From NCBI GenBank assembly GCA_021648725.1, contig JAKISF010000014.1:1-64000 (forward strand): DNA of 64,000 nucleotides, read 5' to 3'. The notes beneath the pieces were generated by a model. That model was not told where the DNA came from. It worked only from the letters and a program-made list of their open reading frames with translations, and ran no database searches. The position numbers and the translations under genes were made by a program. Every line of letters starts with the position of its first letter. The first letter of the stretch is position 1. Of this stretch, positions 53,627 through 62,701 are shown in pieces. Source of the stretch: Bacteroidales bacterium. Its GTDB lineage: Bacteria; Bacteroidota; Bacteroidia; Bacteroidales; JAADGE01.

Positions 53627-56551
53627 TTATTTAAAAAGTTCCAAAATATTTGTTTTTGTCATATTCTTTAAAGGATTGTTGTTGTTAATAAAAGTATCGG
53701 CAAGTTTGCTTTTTTTCTCTTGCAATTTTGAAATTTTTTCTTCAATCGTATTTTCGCTAATATACCTGTAAACCATAACTTTTTTGTCTTGTCCTATCCT
53801 GTGTGCCCTGTTAACGGCTTGTTTTTCTACTGCCGGATTCCACCATGGGTCGATAATAAAAACATAATCGGCTTCAGTTAAGTTTAAGCCTGTTCCGCCT
53901 GCTTTTATTGATATAAGAAAAACACGATTATCAGTATTATCTTGAAATTCTGAAATAACTTCTTCTCTTTTTTTTGTTTGCCCCGTAAGCTTTGAATATT
54001 TTATATTGTTTTTTTCAAAATAAGCGGCTAATAAATCTAAATGCTTTACAAACGATGAAAAAATTAATACTTTATGATTTTCGGAAGTTAAACTTTCAAT
54101 ATTTCTGATAATTTCATTAAACTTCCCGGATTCCCCTTCATATTTTTCATCAACTAAAACCGGATGATTTGAAATTTGCCTTAACTTTGTTAATGCACCC
54201 AAAACCTCAACCGAAAGTGATTTTTTTTCTCCGCTTTCAATCAGTCCGATAATTTTATTTCTTATTTTTGATTTTTCTTTCTCGTAATAACTTTTTTGTT
54301 CCTCATCTTGCTTGCAATAAATTGTTTGTTCCGTAAGCGGAGGCAAGTCTTTTGCAACTTCGTTTTTTGTACGTCTTAATAAAAAAGGATTAATAATTCT
54401 TTTTAACTTTTCCTCTTGAATTTCATTAGCTTGTTTTTCAATCGGCTTTATAAAAGTTTGATTAAAAAAGTTTTCATTCCCCAACATTCCGTTGTTTATA
54501 AAGTTCATTTGCGACCATAAATCTGTCAGAGAGTTTTCTATCGGTGTGCCGGTTAAAACTAATCTGTATTCCGAGTCTAATTCCAAAACAGCCTTGTAAG
54601 TTTTTGAATTAGAATTTTTTATAAATTGACTTTCGTCTAAAACCACATATAAAAATTCATGATTCTTTAATAAATCAATATCATTTCGAATTAATGCATA
54701 GCCGGCAAGTATTATATCATATTCATTAAAACGATTAATGTTTCGATGCCTGTTGCTGCCTTTATAAACTAAAACTTTTAACTTCGGAGCAAACTTTTTT
54801 ATTTCATTTTTCCAATTATGGATTAATGAAATCGGCATTACAATTAAACTTGCTTTTCTCTGAAATTCAGCAGGTTCAGAAGCCTTCTCTACGAAAAGAT
54901 TTAATTGAGATTGCTGTTTGGTTTCAATCGATTCTTTAATTCTGCTGTTTATTGTTTTTTGCAGCAAAGTTATTGTTTGCAATGTTTTTCCCAAGCCCAT
55001 ATCATCGGCAAGGCAACCTCCGAAGTTGTTTTCCTGTAAAAAATACATCCACTTTAAGCCGTCTTTTTGATAAGGTCGTAATTCTGCTTTTATATCTTCC
55101 GGAACTTCCGTTTCAAATTCATTAAAGTGAATTAATTTTGAAATGCTTTTTTTAAACTGCTTGTCAATTCCTTTTATTTCTGATTTTTTAAGTGCGTCAA
55201 AATGTGTTTTCCCGAGTTTTAATTTATCCGAATTTTTTTCACCAAACATAAATATTTCAGAATATTTTGCAAACCATTCATCAGGAATTATTGCAATTGT
55301 TTTATCGGGCAAAACAAATTCTCTTTTCTCTTTTAGAATGTGATTTCTTAGATTTATAAAGGGAATCTCAAATTTACCGAAAGATACTGTTCCGTAGATA
55401 TCAAACCAGTCTTTTTTCTTGCTTATTTTAATATTTGATGAAATTTTCTGAATGAAATACTCTTTTCTGTATAAATCTTGCTTAAAACTTACTCCGATTT
55501 CTGTAAATTTGTGCTTATTCTCACTCAGCCATTCAACAGTTTCTTGATATTGCAATTCTCTTGCTTTGGTTTTTGCATTAACTTTGAAGTTATTATCAGC
55601 TTGCAATATTAATCCTGTATTTTGTATTTTTTTTATAATCTTTTTCTCCCAACTTTCATTTCTGCTGAGTTTTGTGAATTCAAAGTTTATTTCGTCAAAC
55701 TCTAATTTGGTTTCAAATTTTTTTCCTGAATGGAAGGTTTCATTTTCATAATGAAAATAAAGCATAAAAGCTAAATCTCCTTTCCAATCTTTTTCAAGAA
55801 CAAGTTCTGCGGTTGCATCAATTCTTTTTTCTTTTATCAAAAAACCTTTAGAACTGACTTCAAATTTTTTAATTGCATTTATTCCGAAGGCTTCAAACCA
55901 CTTTCTTTCTGCCGATTTCGGAATGCTTATATGCGTTTTGTCAAAAAAAGGTTTCAGTTTTTTTCCGTCAATATCGGCAAAAGAATATAACTTACTGTCT
56001 AAAATCAAATTACACGGCTCATTACTTATTATCACAACTGATTTACCGAACAAATTAATTTCTTTTTCCTCATGTTTTACAGATAAAAAATATTTTGTTC
56101 CTGCTTCTTCTTTTTCAATATTAAAAACCGTTTTCGCAGGCTCTTTTTGTATGGTAATTAAATCTTCCTTATATAATGTATTGAATTTATCTTTTTTCAG
56201 ATACATAGGAATATCTGCCTCGCTTAACTTCTCAATAATTGTTATCAAACGCTTTTCAATAAACGGTCTTATGCGTTTTTCAATATCGTATTTTGAAACT
56301 GACTTAACAAATTCTAAAGCCTTTTTCTTTTTTGAAAAAATTCTTGCAAGATTCTGATCTGAATAACTTTCAATTGTTTTAATTATCCCTTTTTCTTCTT
56401 CCGTATATCGTTCAGGCTGGCGTTCAACATCAGGAAAAGATACATTTTCGGCAATTTCGATAAAATGTTTATTTTTCTTTTCCGTAAAATGGGCAGAAAA
56501 CACAAACCCGAAAGTATAATGTTCTCTTAAAAGTATTATCAATTCAGACAT
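53627..56551 (-). CDS. SNF2-family DNA helicase/translocase
   Basis: The 974-residue protein has an unusual N-terminal half (1 to about 490) without a known zinc or SWIM domain, then a SNF2 ATPase core: Q-motif area LRPYQKDGLKWMYFL, Walker A LADDMGLGKTLQ near residue 517, Walker B variant VLDESQFIKN near 637, TGTPIENSLTDLWSQM, and helicase C-terminal motifs ISIKAGGTGLNLTEADYV and RAHRIGQDKKV. It should move along double-stranded DNA or remodel protein-DNA complexes. I use the ATG at 56551; a TTG at 56566 overlaps a promoter-like TAAATTTG. Confidence 0.92.
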   Translation of the reverse strand: MSELIILLREHYTFGFVFSAHFTEKKNKHFIEIAENVSFPDVERQPERYTEEEKGIIKTIESYSDQNLARIFSKKKKALEFVKSVSKYDIEKRIRPFIEKRLITIIEKLSEADIPMYLKKDKFNTLYKEDLITIQKEPAKTVFNIEKEEAGTKYFLSVKHEEKEINLFGKSVVIISNEPCNLILDSKLYSFADIDGKKLKPFFDKTHISIPKSAERKWFEAFGINAIKKFEVSSKGFLIKEKRIDATAELVLEKDWKGDLAFMLYFHYENETFHSGKKFETKLEFDEINFEFTKLSRNESWEKKIIKKIQNTGLILQADNNFKVNAKTKARELQYQETVEWLSENKHKFTEIGVSFKQDLYRKEYFIQKISSNIKISKKKDWFDIYGTVSFGKFEIPFINLRNHILKEKREFVLPDKTIAIIPDEWFAKYSEIFMFGEKNSDKLKLGKTHFDALKKSEIKGIDKQFKKSISKLIHFNEFETEVPEDIKAELRPYQKDGLKWMYFLQENNFGGCLADDMGLGKTLQTITLLQKTINSRIKESIETKQQSQLNLFVEKASEPAEFQRKASLIVMPISLIHNWKNEIKKFAPKLKVLVYKGSNRHRNINRFNEYDIILAGYALIRNDIDLLKNHEFLYVVLDESQFIKNSNSKTYKAVLELDSEYRLVLTGTPIENSLTDLWSQMNFINNGMLGNENFFNQTFIKPIEKQANEIQEEKLKRIINPFLLRRTKNEVAKDLPPLTEQTIYCKQDEEQKSYYEKEKSKIRNKIIGLIESGEKKSLSVEVLGALTKLRQISNHPVLVDEKYEGESGKFNEIIRNIESLTSENHKVLIFSSFVKHLDLLAAYFEKNNIKYSKLTGQTKKREEVISEFQDNTDNRVFLISIKAGGTGLNLTEADYVFIIDPWWNPAVEKQAVNRAHRIGQDKKVMVYRYISENTIEEKISKLQEKKSKLADTFINNNNPLKNMTKTNILELFK

Positions 56552-56665
56552 TATGTTTTTTGACAAATTTAACCGGTAAAGTTAAAGAAAGTTTATAAAT
56601 CAAAGCAGAAAAAATCAAGCTTATTTTCATTTTTTTCATAATTGCAATTGAGCTAAAAAAACAAC

Positions 56666-58177
56666 TTAATTAGCATCTGCCCATTCCGGAAAAACATTCA
56701 TGTCAATATCAAAAACAGATTGCCCCCAGTAATACATTGCAAGCGTAACGATTATTACACCTATTATGTTCAGAATAAATCCGGTTCGCATCATATCTTT
56801 AATGCGGATTTTGTTTGTGCCGAAAACAATAGCATTGGGAGGCGTTGCAACCGGCAGCATAAAAGCTAAAGATGCAGCCATTGTTGCAGGAATCATAAAA
56901 ATTAAAGGATTTATTTTAACTGACATAGCTAAGCCTGCAAGAATAGGTAAAATCATTTCCGTAGTTGCTGTATTTGAAGTCAACTCAGTTAAAAATGACA
57001 TAAAAAATGTTATCGACAATATTAAAATTAAGGGATGAACTTCTGCCAATCCTTTCATTTGCTCACCGAACCAAACAGCAAAACCGCTCTCGGCAAAACC
57101 TTGTGCCAAAGCAAATCCGCCGCCGAAAAGCAAAACAATATGCCAAGGCAGTTTTCGTATAGAATCTGCCTCTAATATCCTTTCTCCTTTTTTTGATTTT
57201 GAAGGAACTATAAACAAAATAACAGCAATTACTATTGCAACCGTTCCGTCATTTATAAACTTCGGATTTTTAAAAAGTGATGACCATCCGGGAATCGTAA
57301 AACTTTCAATTGTTATTCCTGAGCGAAAAATCCACAATAATGCTAATGTAACAAATGCTGTAAAAACAACATTTTCCTCAAAGCTTGCTTTTCCGAGTTC
57401 TTTGTATTGTTTTCTGAAAAAATCTTTTCCAATATTTATTGATTTCGAACTTGTTCGATACATTAAATATAAAACCGACCATGCAGCAAAAAGCATAAAC
57501 AAACTTACAGGCAAAGCAAACACAAACCATTGCGAAAATGAAATTTCGGGTGCATTCGGGAAAATAATCGCAAAAATTCTTGAAAATGATAAATTCGGCG
57601 GTGTACCTATTAGTGTTGCAATTCCGCCGACTGATGCTGCATAAGCAATACCGAGCAACAAACTTAAAGAATATTTTCGAGCATCTTTTTTGTTCAAAAT
57701 CTCATTAAATTTTGAAATTATTGAAATTGCAACCGGCACCATCATCATAGCAGTTGCGGTATTTGACATCCACATTGATAAAAATGCAGTTGCAAACATA
57801 AATCCGAACAGAATTTTTCCGTGTCCGGTTCCCGTGAGTAATAATATTTTTAATGCAATTCGTTTATGCAAATTATGTTTTTCCATTGCCATAGCAACCA
57901 AAAAACCGCCGATAAATAAAAAGATAATATGATTAAAATAAACAGAAGAAACTGCTTTACCGTTCATAATTCCGAGCAAAGGAAACAGGGCAACCGGCAA
58001 AAGTGCCGTAACGGCAATCGGAATCGCTTCCGTTACCCACCAAACCGCCATTAAAACGGCAATGGCAAGTGTTGCGGTAATTTCGGGATTTTGCGGGTCA
58101 AGGTCAGCAAAAATCAATATAAATATTGCTGATAATGAGCCGATTATTAAACCGATGGTTTTTGTCGGGAATTTCAT
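56666..58177 (-). CDS. SLC13/DASS-family sodium-dependent anion transporter
   Basis: The 503-residue protein has about 11-12 helices and the paired substrate and sodium motifs of the family, MSNTATAMMMVPVA and TSNTATTEMILPIL, with ATLIGTPPNLSF and VATPPNAIVFGTNKI. It should import a dicarboxylate such as succinate, malate or aspartate with sodium. It starts 7 bp after the DPP11 gene's stop and so belongs to that operon, which suggests an acidic amino acid or related acid as substrate (inference). Confidence 0.92.
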   Translation of the reverse strand: MKFPTKTIGLIIGSLSAIFILIFADLDPQNPEITATLAIAVLMAVWWVTEAIPIAVTALLPVALFPLLGIMNGKAVSSVYFNHIIFLFIGGFLVAMAMEKHNLHKRIALKILLLTGTGHGKILFGFMFATAFLSMWMSNTATAMMMVPVAISIISKFNEILNKKDARKYSLSLLLGIAYAASVGGIATLIGTPPNLSFSRIFAIIFPNAPEISFSQWFVFALPVSLFMLFAAWSVLYLMYRTSSKSINIGKDFFRKQYKELGKASFEENVVFTAFVTLALLWIFRSGITIESFTIPGWSSLFKNPKFINDGTVAIVIAVILFIVPSKSKKGERILEADSIRKLPWHIVLLFGGGFALAQGFAESGFAVWFGEQMKGLAEVHPLILILSITFFMSFLTELTSNTATTEMILPILAGLAMSVKINPLIFMIPATMAASLAFMLPVATPPNAIVFGTNKIRIKDMMRTGFILNIIGVIIVTLAMYYWGQSVFDIDMNVFPEWADAN

Positions 58178-58184
58178 TTTTTAT

Positions 58185-60353
58185 TTACTCTACAATCGTC
58201 ATTTCTTCAACCAAATGCGAAGCTCCTGCAAATTTATCAATTATAAAAAGAACGTAACGAATATCAAGGGTTATATTTCTGCATTGATCAGGATCATACA
58301 TTATATCACTCATTGTGCCTTCCCAATTACGATCGAAATTTACGCCTATTAATTCTCCGTTTCCGTTAATGACGGGACTTCCTGAATTTCCGCCTGTTGT
58401 ATGATTTGATGCTATAAAACAAATGTGCATTTCTCCGTTTTCAGCATATCTTCCGTAATCTTTATTGTTATATAATTCTTTTAACTTATCCGGTACATCG
58501 TAATCATAAATTTCAGGGTTATCTTTTTCAATAACTCCTTTTAAAGTTGTATAGTATTGGTATTTTACACCGTCTTTCGGTTCATAAGTATCAACTTGTC
58601 CGTATGCAATTCGTAAAGTTGAATTTGCATCAGGATAGAATATTTTATTTGTGTCGGCTTCCATTAATGCTTGCATATAAAAGCGTTTTTTCTTATCAAT
58701 TTGAGTTGTATATTTTTCGGTAAAAGGTGTTATTTTTGTGTAATACACATTTACAAAATCATAAAAAAAGTTGTAAGCAGGTGTGTTTTTTATTTTTTCA
58801 ATATTTTCTGAACCATAGCTGAATTTCTCCATGAATTCATTAAATTTTTCTTGGTTTAAGAAGAAAGTGTTAGCAAAGTAATAATCTGTATAATAATCGA
58901 TTATATCTTTTTTGCTTAAATCAAAATGATTAAATGTTTCAAATATGTTCATAATTTCGGGTTGAAATTGTTCTCCTGCGTTTTCATAATAAAGCTTAAA
59001 TAAAACTTTAAATAATTTCTTATCGGTTTCTTGATTGTAATCTTTAAAAAATTTTGTTGCATATTTTTTTACCGATTCAATATCTTCTTCGGTATTTTTT
59101 TCTCCTTTTCTTACTAAACTTGCCATTTTTGAACTGAACTTTACACTTTCCATTCTCCAAATTGCTTCATAAAAATATTCTTCCGCTAAAAAATACGGAG
59201 TATATTCGGCATATAATTTTTTGAAATCGGGTAATAAATGTCCGTATTTTGCTATTCGGTCTTTGCTGCCGTTTATCCATTTAATTAGTTGTTCTTCGGT
59301 TGCTTCTTTTTTTGCAACTGCATTTAAAATCTCCAAACCTCTGTTTTCTCCCAACCATTTTTTCCAATAATTTGAAACACCTGCATATTTTGCAGAATAT
59401 TTTATTCTTACTGCCGGATCTTTTTCCATATCAGCACTCATAATATCAATTATGTTTTGGCGGATATTAATTCTGTGCGGATTTATTTTGTTCTTAATCA
59501 TGTCAACGGCATAAGAAGTAAGATATTCTTGTGTTCTTCCGGGATAACCGAAAACCATTGTAAAATCACCTTTTTTAACACCTTTTATTGAAACCGGGAA
59601 GTGTTTAATCGGTTTAAAAGGAACATTATTTTCCGAATATTCGGCAGGTTCATTGTTTTCATCAGCATAAATTCTGAATAAAGAAAAATCACCGGTATGT
59701 CGAGGCCACATCCAATTGTCAGTATCTCCTCCGAATTTACCTATTGCAGAAGGCGGTGCTCCTACCAAGCGAACATCTTTATAAACTTTTTGAACGAATA
59801 AAAAGTATTGGTTTCCGTAGAAAAAGGGTTTAACTTTAATTTTATAGTCATTTCCTTCTGCCGCTTTTTCTTCTGCTGCTTTAATATTTTCTTCAATTAA
59901 TTTTTCTCGGTCTTCGTCTTTCATATCGTCTGTAATACCTGCAAGAATTTTAGAAGTTACGTCTTCCATTCTTACAAGAAAGGTTACGGTTAAATTTTCG
60001 TTGGGAAGTTCTTCTTTATCAGACATTGCCCAAAAGCCGTTTGTCAAATAGTCATTTTCCAACGAGCTGTGTGATTGAATGTTATAATAACCGCAATGAT
60101 GGTTTGTAAGAATTAAACCTCTGTCAGAAATAAGTTCTGCCGTGCAACCTCCTCCGAAAATTATTACTGCATCTTTCATGCTTGCTTGATTAATGCTGTA
60201 TATATCTTCAGCCGTAAGTTTAAAGCCTTTCTTTTGCATTTTATCAATATTATATTTTTTAAGAAAAAGAGGAATCCACATTCCTTCATCAGCTTTTAGA
60301 TTTGAAACTGCAATTATTAAAATTGCTAATGTTGTTGATATTATTTTTTTCAT
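58185..60353 (-). CDS. dpp11: S46 dipeptidyl-peptidase, DPP11 type (acidic P1)
   Basis: 722 residues with a signal peptide (AVSNLKA-like, about 21 residues), so periplasmic. The catalytic His lies in TNHHCGYY (about residue 85), an Asp near 227 (FRIYADEN), and the Ser in GGNSGSPVI (about 655). Eighteen residues after that Ser is Arg (VNFDRNWEG), the position (Arg673) that in Porphyromonas gingivalis DPP11 selects Asp or Glu before the cut; DPP7 has Gly there. It releases dipeptides ending in acidic residues from peptide N-termini. First gene of an operon with the SLC13 transporter and divergent from an aspartyl aminopeptidase. Confidence 0.9.
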   Translation of the reverse strand: MKKIISTTLAILIIAVSNLKADEGMWIPLFLKKYNIDKMQKKGFKLTAEDIYSINQASMKDAVIIFGGGCTAELISDRGLILTNHHCGYYNIQSHSSLENDYLTNGFWAMSDKEELPNENLTVTFLVRMEDVTSKILAGITDDMKDEDREKLIEENIKAAEEKAAEGNDYKIKVKPFFYGNQYFLFVQKVYKDVRLVGAPPSAIGKFGGDTDNWMWPRHTGDFSLFRIYADENNEPAEYSENNVPFKPIKHFPVSIKGVKKGDFTMVFGYPGRTQEYLTSYAVDMIKNKINPHRINIRQNIIDIMSADMEKDPAVRIKYSAKYAGVSNYWKKWLGENRGLEILNAVAKKEATEEQLIKWINGSKDRIAKYGHLLPDFKKLYAEYTPYFLAEEYFYEAIWRMESVKFSSKMASLVRKGEKNTEEDIESVKKYATKFFKDYNQETDKKLFKVLFKLYYENAGEQFQPEIMNIFETFNHFDLSKKDIIDYYTDYYFANTFFLNQEKFNEFMEKFSYGSENIEKIKNTPAYNFFYDFVNVYYTKITPFTEKYTTQIDKKKRFYMQALMEADTNKIFYPDANSTLRIAYGQVDTYEPKDGVKYQYYTTLKGVIEKDNPEIYDYDVPDKLKELYNNKDYGRYAENGEMHICFIASNHTTGGNSGSPVINGNGELIGVNFDRNWEGTMSDIMYDPDQCRNITLDIRYVLFIIDKFAGASHLVEEMTIVE

Positions 60354-60382
60354 GTTTTAAAATATTTTTGAGTTTTAAAGTT

Positions 60383-60390
60383 CAAATATA
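60383..60390 (-). promoter_or_regulatory. -7 box candidate of the dpp11 operon
   Basis: On the minus strand TATATTTG (plus-strand CAAATATA), 29 bp before the dpp11 start. The -33 element is not clear. Confidence 0.45.
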
Positions 60391-60497
60391 GAAATTTTGA
60401 ATGATTAGACATAAATATTCAGACAAGGATAAATTTATTGAGCATAAAAAGGTAATATAAAACAGGAAAACTTGTTTTATTTATACCAAACAATGAT

Positions 60498-60505
60498 TAT
60501 ATTTG
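60498..60505 (+). promoter_or_regulatory. -7 box candidate of the M18 peptidase gene
   Basis: TATATTTG, 27 bp before the ATG at 60533. A TTG lies at 60472-60474, 23 bases upstream, slightly beyond the usual spacing. Its own last bases (TTG) could be taken for a false start at 60503. Confidence 0.45.
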
Positions 60506-60532
60506 TTGAAAATTTTCAAAAACCTTAAATTA

Positions 60533-61831
60533 ATGGAAACTACAATAAAATTTGCAAATGATTTAATTGACTTTTTATATGAAAGTCCGACAGCTTTTCA
60601 AGCCGTAAGAAATGTTAAAGCTGCCTTAATAAGAAAAGGATTTAAACAACTTCACAGAGGCGAAAGTTGGAATTTAGAAAAAGGAGGAAGGTATTTCACA
60701 ACAAAAAATGCGTCTTCTTTAGTTGCTTTTATTGTAGGAACCGGAGAAATTGAAAAAGAAGGTTACAGAATTATTGCTGCACATACAGATTCGCCTGCTT
60801 TAAAAATAAAACCTTCGCCTGAAATGACCGGTCAGGGAAATTACTTAAAATTGAATGTTGAAACATACGGAGGTCCTATTTTAAGTACTTGGATGGACAG
60901 ACCACTTTCTCTTGCCGGCAGAGTTTCGCTGAAAAGTGAAAACGTAATGCGACCGGAAGTTAAATACATAAATATTCGGAAACCTATAATGGTTATACCA
61001 AATTTGGCAATACATCTTAACAGAACAATTAATGAAAGCAAGGAATATAACAAGCAAAAAGATATGTTACCGATTTTAAGATTAGTTGAGGAAAAGTTTG
61101 AAAAAGACAACTATCTTAAAAACCTTCTTGCCAAATATTTACATGTTGAAAATGATAAAATAATGGACTTTGACTTAAATTTATACGAATTTGAGAGGGG
61201 TTCAATAATAGGAGAAAATAATGATTTTATTTCAGCCGGAAGAATTGATGATTTATCGATGGTTCATGCCGGAATTGATGCTTTATTTAACAGCAGAACT
61301 GCAAAATCAACAAATGTTATGATTTGCTTTGATAACGAAGAAGTAGGGAGTGAAACAAAACAAGGAGCAGCTTCTCCGTTTTTAAAAGATGTTTTAAAAA
61401 GAGTTACTTGGGCACAAAGCACACAAAGAGATGCTTTTTACAGAGCAAAAATTAATTCTTTCGGAATTTCTGCTGATAATGCTCATGCAATTCATCCGAA
61501 TTTACCCGAAAATTATGACCCTGTTTTGCAACCTAAAATGAATGAGGGACCTGTTATTAAAGTAAATGCAAATCAAAAATATACAACAGATGCTTTATCA
61601 TCGGCAACATTTCAAATGCTGTGCGAAAAAGCCGGTGTTCCTGTTCAAATGTATGTAAATAAATCTGATATTGCGGGTGGCTCAACATTAGGAAGTATAT
61701 CATCAACACAGTTGGATATACGAATGGTTGACGTTGGCAATGCAATGCTTGCAATGCACTCAATAAGAGAGCTGTGCGGCGTTAAGGACCATTACTATAT
61801 GAAACAAGTTTTTGATGAGTTTTATAAATAA
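60533..61831 (+). CDS. apeB: M18 family aspartyl aminopeptidase
   Basis: 432 residues from the ATG at 60533, the normal size of M18 enzymes, which remove N-terminal Asp and Glu in the cytoplasm with two zinc ions. Metal and active-site motifs are AAHTDSPALKIKP, SAGRIDDLSMVHAG, CFDNEEVGSETKQGA, ISADNAHAIHPN and the C-terminal MLAMHSIRELCG. The gene is divergent from dpp11; both products act on acidic residues, one on dipeptides in the periplasm and one on N-termini in the cytoplasm. Confidence 0.93.
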   Translation: METTIKFANDLIDFLYESPTAFQAVRNVKAALIRKGFKQLHRGESWNLEKGGRYFTTKNASSLVAFIVGTGEIEKEGYRIIAAHTDSPALKIKPSPEMTGQGNYLKLNVETYGGPILSTWMDRPLSLAGRVSLKSENVMRPEVKYINIRKPIMVIPNLAIHLNRTINESKEYNKQKDMLPILRLVEEKFEKDNYLKNLLAKYLHVENDKIMDFDLNLYEFERGSIIGENNDFISAGRIDDLSMVHAGIDALFNSRTAKSTNVMICFDNEEVGSETKQGAASPFLKDVLKRVTWAQSTQRDAFYRAKINSFGISADNAHAIHPNLPENYDPVLQPKMNEGPVIKVNANQKYTTDALSSATFQMLCEKAGVPVQMYVNKSDIAGGSTLGSISSTQLDIRMVDVGNAMLAMHSIRELCGVKDHYYMKQVFDEFYK

Positions 61832-62701
61832 TTAAAAGAAAAAACTTTTTTTAATTTTATAATACGGGTATTGTTTTGCTCCTAATCCTTTGTAGAATTC
61901 GACAGGCATCAGGTTTAAACCGAAAAAATCCAGTGTAATTGCTTTTTCGGAATGAATTTTTAAATAGTGATCTATAAGCCCGTAAAGGGCTTTTTTATTT
62001 TGTGCTTCTTTGCTTGAATATGCAACAATAATATTTGTTTTATAATGAGAGCGAATAAATAAAACAGCGGCAATTAATCTGTTTTTTTCATTAAATGCAC
62101 CAAAAATTTCACCTTTGTTTTTTCTTAACGCAAGAGAAGACAACACTCTTAATTTATTTTGTTTCTTCTTGTTTAATTTATTTACAACTGATGCCAATAA
62201 TACAAAACCGTTAGGAAGTATGCCCGTATTATAAAACAGTTTGTTTTTTTTTGCAATTTCTAATTGTTCTTTAAAAAAACCGGAGTAAGTTTTTTGAAAT
62301 GATTTGTAAGGGCTTATTAAATCGATTCGGTACGAATATTTTTCGATTAACTTAGAAGAATAAACAGTTAGATTTTTATTGTCGGAATAAAAACTATAAA
62401 GTTTTCCGGCTAAGGGTTTAAAAAAATCTGAAGTTATTTCGACATTTAAATTTTGCGATATATATAAATTCAACTTACTCAAAAATATCGGCTTTTCGAT
62501 TATCTTTATTCCGGCAATTTTTTTAACAGGGACGGGAAAAACTGCTTTATAATCATCAATAATTAGTGCATCCCATTCGATATAAACAGCATCAAGATAC
62601 CAAGAATAGCCGAAAACATCACCGTTTTGTGCACGAGAGATACATTTATCCCACAGGATAAAATCAATATCTTTATTTTTTATATATTTTATTTGAGGCA
62701 T
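61832..62701 (-). CDS. FemAB/GNAT-like putative acyltransferase
   Basis: The 289-residue protein looks like a two-lobe GNAT/FemAB fold: AVFPVPVKKIAGIKII early on, then the acceptor-lobe segments FKEQLEIAKKNKL and KGEIFGAFNEKNRLIAAVLFI, NIIVAYSSKEAQNKKALYGLIDH and LDFFGLNLMPVEFYKGLGA. The last segments are the GNAT-like core. FemAB-like proteins use aminoacyl-tRNA or CoA to modify peptides or sugars; the substrate here is unknown. Its stop touches the M18 gene's stop on the opposite strand, and it follows radC by 9 bp. Confidence 0.75.
   Translation of the reverse strand: MPQIKYIKNKDIDFILWDKCISRAQNGDVFGYSWYLDAVYIEWDALIIDDYKAVFPVPVKKIAGIKIIEKPIFLSKLNLYISQNLNVEITSDFFKPLAGKLYSFYSDNKNLTVYSSKLIEKYSYRIDLISPYKSFQKTYSGFFKEQLEIAKKNKLFYNTGILPNGFVLLASVVNKLNKKKQNKLRVLSSLALRKNKGEIFGAFNEKNRLIAAVLFIRSHYKTNIIVAYSSKEAQNKKALYGLIDHYLKIHSEKAITLDFFGLNLMPVEFYKGLGAKQYPYYKIKKSFFF

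Follow-up and report, generated by a model that had tools for sequence, protein, structure and literature searches.

A gene for a DPP11-type dipeptidyl-peptidase, a gene for an SLC13 anion transporter and a gene for an M18 aminopeptidase adjoin one another in the window (the whole 64,000-nucleotide stretch of Bacteroidales DNA analysed here). We consider it likely that these are three ordinary metabolic genes, each acting on its own, which were brought together in one lineage, the M18 gene by inversion of a block. Beyond that, the best reading of the data is at most a loose pairing of DPP11 with SLC13 at the level of the genus. The case calls for caution, as an inversion together with a shortened gap can make three adjacent genes look convincingly like one functional theme; the gene-level calls are of use in annotating an uncultured Bacteroidota genus.

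The locus and its three proteins

The region is laid out as follows:

53627-56566, minus strand: SNF2-type helicase gene, adjoining SLC13 in the window genome (G000)
56666..58177, minus strand: SLC13/DASS Na+-coupled anion symporter, 503 aa
58178..58184, minus strand: DPP11-SLC13 junction, 7 bp
58185..60353, minus strand: DPP11-type S46 dipeptidyl-peptidase, 722 aa
60354..60532, no strand: divergent DPP11/M18 intergenic region, with one candidate TATNTTTG box per gene
60533..61831 (probable start), plus strand: M18 aminopeptidase, probably 432 aa (listed open reading frame 60503-61831)
61832-62701, minus strand: 289-aa open reading frame after M18, followed by a RadC gene, also on the minus strand

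The order, coordinates and names that a sequence-only reading of this DNA had given for the three genes were right, and so was its spacing of SLC13 from DPP11: the ATG of SLC13 stands at 58177, 7 bp past the DPP11 stop codon. Two further genes of the layout drew our attention. The SNF2-family helicase shows similarity to the PADLOC families DpdE and ZorD, far under the NCBIfam cut-offs, and its ∼490 N-terminal residues have no Pfam match. The 289-aa frame has no Pfam or NCBIfam match and is kept in the genus at 44-54% identity, beside RadC.

The DPP11 protein matched the Pfam S46 family (PF10459, 805 bits) over positions 1-698 of 698, i.e. over the full-length family domain. Its best solved relatives were Asp/Glu-specific dipeptidyl-peptidases (5jxf, 1.4e-215; 4xzy, 2.5e-170), and the DPP7-type 7dkb and DAP BII scored far below these two. 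In the alignment Arg675 (in NFDRNWE, 18 residues past the catalytic Ser657) occupies the position of PgDPP11 Arg673, at which, by a rule given in a section of PMC8048996, Arg or Ser denotes DPP11 and Gly denotes DPP7. The scores and this residue bear out the earlier call of a DPP11 with the Arg673 signature. By eye, the N-terminus looks like a signal peptide. The protein thus shares with DPP11 (S46.002) of Porphyromonas gingivalis and P. endodontalis the S46 fold, the catalytic Ser, the acid-selecting Arg and putative export, and we saw no difference of kind between them. A second S46 gene of the window genome (G000:C49) has Gly at this position (FDGNWEA) and is DPP7-like. Outside the window, DPP11 is split over two frames in G001 (L193), and in G016 (L188) a stop interrupts it close to a contig end; either case may reflect real decay or an assembly error.

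The transporter matched Pfam PF00939 and the NCBIfam model 'dass' (TIGR00785, 301 bits against a cut-off of 198.6). It carries two SNT motifs (SNTATAMMMVP and SNTATTEMILP), and when it was aligned to 8y5u its selectivity residues were of the carboxylate type (GTPPN and VATPPN). In a section of PMC10980263 on the NaS1 and NaDC1 structures, NaS1 Ser260 and Asn533 are positions that differ between sulfate and carboxylate carriers. The window protein has Pro at the first (equivalent to VcINDY Pro201) and Thr at the second (equivalent to NaDC1 Thr519), the pair that VcINDY also carries. Its scores were best to NaDC3, NaCT and NaDC1, followed by NaS1 and then by VcINDY. Could it nonetheless be a carrier of sulfate or another inorganic anion, unrelated to peptides? 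The Pfam family name does include sulfate symporters, but the Pro and Thr and the order of the scores speak against this; we rejected the sulfate reading on the selectivity residues and give it next to no chance. With both NaS1-distinguishing positions of the carboxylate type, the residues sustain the sodium/dicarboxylate class proposed earlier, and the protein most likely moves C4-dicarboxylates. It resembles the SLC13/DASS cotransporters (VcINDY, NaDC1, NaDC3, NaCT) in the two SNT motifs, the carboxylate-type Pro and Thr and cotransporter-like scores; by score it is nearer to animal SLC13A2/3/5 than to VcINDY, and its substrate is a prediction.

The aminopeptidase matched PF02127 (451 bits) and NCBIfam PRK02813 (578 bits). 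Its listed open reading frame begins at a TTG (60503); an in-frame ATG at 60533 (METTIKF...) gives 432 aa. This agrees with the 432-433 aa of most relatives and makes 60533 the probable true start, with ∼179 bp left between DPP11 and M18. We aligned the window protein with PaApeB and the S. pombe enzyme (7dde), placing the DNPEP position by residue count, and found Lys at the DNPEP Lys374 position, 25 residues past the aligned His349 with no gap between. Part of a paper on the DNPEP structure (PMC3472314) proposes that Lys374, 25 residues after the P1-pocket His349, marks the acidic M18 enzymes and states that the bacterial M18 structures compared there are without it; PaApeB carries the marker Lys in our alignment. 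The window enzyme is like PaApeB and DNPEP/Ape4 in its full length, its SADNAHAIHPN metal motif and its Lys at DNPEP 374, but by the same ungapped count DNPEP His363 is Leu, and the activity is predicted. With the Lys marker kept, the identity as an aspartyl aminopeptidase and the acidic class hold at the level of residues. Thus the substrate classes first suggested for all three proteins are plausible, and acidic substrates indicated for each are a point against reading the genes as unconnected.

Within the divergent region there are two candidate TATNTTTG boxes, at 60383-60390 (minus strand, for DPP11) and at 60498-60505 (plus strand, for M18), so that each of the two genes has its own candidate promoter. 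We take this box to be the Bacteroidota -7 promoter element. DPP11 is also preceded by a candidate box in each of the 12 readable genus genomes, whichever gene is the neighbour; this DNA is AT-rich, and the box distances run to the ends of the extracted pieces of sequence. A sigma-70 promoter scan of the region gave matches at shuffle level, and terminator matches were little above the shuffles. DPP11 and SLC13 are probably on one transcript in the window genome, since only 7 bp separate them.

The aminopeptidase gene as a neighbour of DPP11

We compared the locus across a genus set of 14 genomes including that of the window. DPP11 was not found in two of them (G014 and G015), and its 5' neighbour could be read in 12. 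This neighbour was M18 in four (G000, G007, G009 and G010), a two-domain adenylate kinase in six (G006, G008, G011, G013, G016 and, behind a 405-aa open reading frame, G012) and another gene (x300) in two (G017 and G018). In G009 (L165) the order is pullulanase-like gene, adenylate kinase (ADK2), alpha/beta hydrolase (ABH), RadC, ORF289, M18, DPP11. In G006 (L166, L168) the orientation is opposite: one contig reads ORF289, RadC, sensor, hydrolase, adenylate kinase, DPP11, and on another contig M18 lies beside the pullulanase-like gene. The M18 and adenylate kinase states are therefore mirror images, and comparison of the two orders indicates that the block between DPP11 and the pullulanase-like gene was flipped. 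Both ends of the flipped block fall in divergent intergenic regions (L165, L166, L168, L198). The two block states follow two subclades in the DPP11, DPP7 and M18 trees (FastTree, support values left aside), which agree on the subclades and not on the order inside them. Thus, M18 adjoins DPP11 by rearrangement, the other half of the genus having the block the other way round.

The adenylate kinase of this block is a fused double enzyme in the window genome (389 aa, minus strand, L198:2564-3733, equal to G000:C14:66564-67733), just beyond the window. Its first domain has an intact P-loop (GPPGAGKGT) and its second reads GHPGSGRGS, with Arg replacing the P-loop Lys; the second lobe is probably an inactive partner. 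At 83-90% identity, the double kinase lies beside or near DPP11 in several members of the genus.

Linkage of DPP11 and the transporter in the genus

Across the 14 genomes, DPP11 and SLC13 were linked in five, not linked in three and at contig ends, which hide the state, in four (G007, G012, G013 and G016); the other two are those in which DPP11 was not found. In all linked cases (G000, G017, G018, G008 and G010) the genes are on the same strand with SLC13 after DPP11. The 7-bp gap is found in the window genome only; in G017 and G018 the gap is about 350-380 bp and holds possible promoter boxes of its own, in G008 a transposase-like open reading frame lies between the genes, and in G010 two genes are inserted. 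SLC13 is elsewhere in the genome in G006 and G011. G009 lacks it, and there RIC-LuxR-NADK (NADK, NAD kinase) comes directly after DPP11. This trio follows SLC13 in other genus genomes, and in the window genome the SNF2 gene adjoins SLC13 instead. The position of the trio directly after DPP11 in G009 implies that the ancestral order in the genus was probably DPP11-SLC13-RIC-LuxR-NADK, and the comparison as a whole suggests that this order is being broken up. The linked genomes fall in both subclades (G000, G010, G017 and G018 as well as G008), which suggests that the linkage is older than the split and may have been kept for a reason. In the SLC13 tree (FastTree), the sequences of one subclade are not directly joined to those of the other, an argument against simple vertical descent of this gene.

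These data bear on the possibility that the genus has a real two-gene unit of DPP11 and SLC13, combining periplasmic harvest of Asp/Glu dipeptides with uptake or release of Asp-derived C4-dicarboxylates and leaving M18 as a bystander. The same-strand linkage in both subclades, the ancestral order to which G009 points and the carboxylate-type residues of the transporter all favour it. We still think such a unit unlikely, as the genes are unlinked or one is lost in G006, G011 and G009, they are interrupted in G008 and G010, and the wide gaps in G017 and G018 may contain separate promoters. In addition, the pair did not recur outside the genus: DPP11 adjoined neither SLC13 nor M18 in any of seven genomes from six other genera of the family (two of the seven had strong SLC13 matches, none beside DPP11), and among the matches listed for 198 genomes of the order, compared by eye, no DPP11-SLC13 linkage was found beyond the window genome. 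Less probable again is a bolder version, by which the ancestral pair couples acidic dipeptide harvest to C4-dicarboxylate exchange and, in the window lineage, has become a single transcript and been placed by the inversion beside an acidic aminopeptidase, a functional cluster forming by rearrangement. We keep to the reading of three separately acting genes.

The transposase-like frame of G008 (L160:3603-4456) matched Pfam Y1_Tnp and, below the cut-off, the NCBIfam REP-associated tyrosine transposase. Short GC-rich palindromic repeats flank it, and a similar weak match follows DPP11 in G012 (L173).

The three genes beyond the genus and their proposed working

The sequence-only reading had proposed that the three genes form one scavenging unit for acidic peptides. 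Its gene identities and its acidic and dicarboxylate substrate classes stood at residue level, and the DPP11-SLC13 link retains some support (5 of 14 genomes); the joint module was not borne out. Using DPP11 as the query, we scanned 84,980 species genomes and kept the best 80 loci, relatives at 47-59% identity. By alignment count, the selecting position was Arg in 79 and Gly in one. None of these 80 loci had SLC13 or M18 near DPP11 in tblastn with the window proteins, nor in a second search with limits of E 1e-3 and 50 bits; the available flanks on both sides measured 1 kb or more at 68 loci, 3 kb or more at 58 and 5 kb or more at 49. Likewise, neither M18 nor ADK2 adjoined DPP11 in the seven family genomes outside the genus. 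Even inside the genus all three genes are adjacent only in the window genome; G010 has them close to one another, with two other genes between DPP11 and SLC13. The neighbourhood is thus not conserved (neither SLC13 nor M18 at any of the 80 loci, M18 beside DPP11 in four of 12 genomes), and we rejected the three-gene module on these grounds. In G248 and G024 (L200, L201; one distant family of the phylum) the matches listed place SLC13 just upstream of an S46 gene on the same strand, the G024 copy by match coordinates since the simple ORF caller missed its frame. A wider DPP11-SLC13 association based on these two was also rejected, as in both of them SLC13 is upstream and the S46 protein belongs to the Gly (DPP7) type.

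The distribution of M18 does not follow that of S46 either. Among 296 genomes of the phylum, S46 was found in 153 and SLC13-family matches in 162. M18 matches occurred in 57, of which 51 were short and weak (up to 27.5 bits) and six were full-length. Among 198 genomes of the order, the counts were 181 for S46, 124 for SLC13 and 20 for M18, and four of these 20 M18 carriers lacked S46 (G340, G392, G452 and G494). A scavenging unit of three genes draws on the gene order and the acidic-substrate residues in the window genome. Against it are the reshuffled neighbourhood of M18 inside the genus, the rarity of M18 where DPP11-type S46 is common and the fact that DPP11 products as a rule are without N-terminal acidic residues. 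M18 is not the natural next step after DPP11, because the dipeptides released by DPP11 carry the acidic residue second and M18 would remove N-terminal Asp or Glu. Moreover, no SLC13 carrier is known to take up dipeptides, which we also counted against such a unit. We regard it as very improbable and prefer to see three ordinary genes.

How might the three proteins then work? DPP11 would be exported and, through Arg675, would cut Xaa-Asp/Glu dipeptides off peptide N-termini in the periplasm; part of PMC8048996 describes for DPP11 a preference for Asp/Glu at P1 and a hydrophobic residue at P2. The Xaa-Asp and Xaa-Glu dipeptides would enter through a POT-type carrier, the main route of dipeptide entry in P. 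gingivalis according to a section of the same paper, and cytosolic dipeptidases would then split them. A POT-family gene is present in the window genome, in two pieces in one 658-aa frame. SLC13 would act as a Na+/C4-dicarboxylate symporter (succinate, fumarate, malate), putatively co-transcribed with DPP11 in the window genome, and M18 as a cytosolic acidic aminopeptidase of general peptide turnover, expressed from its own promoter. If SLC13 and DPP11 are tied at all, the tie would run through Asp carbon skeletons. An operon of DPP11 with a dicarboxylate carrier was not found in the literature searched for DPP11 together with dicarboxylate. Finally, among the matches listed, S46 genes also occur as same-strand pairs ∼1 kb or less apart (G250:C18, G258:C2, G376:C82 and G479:C165).
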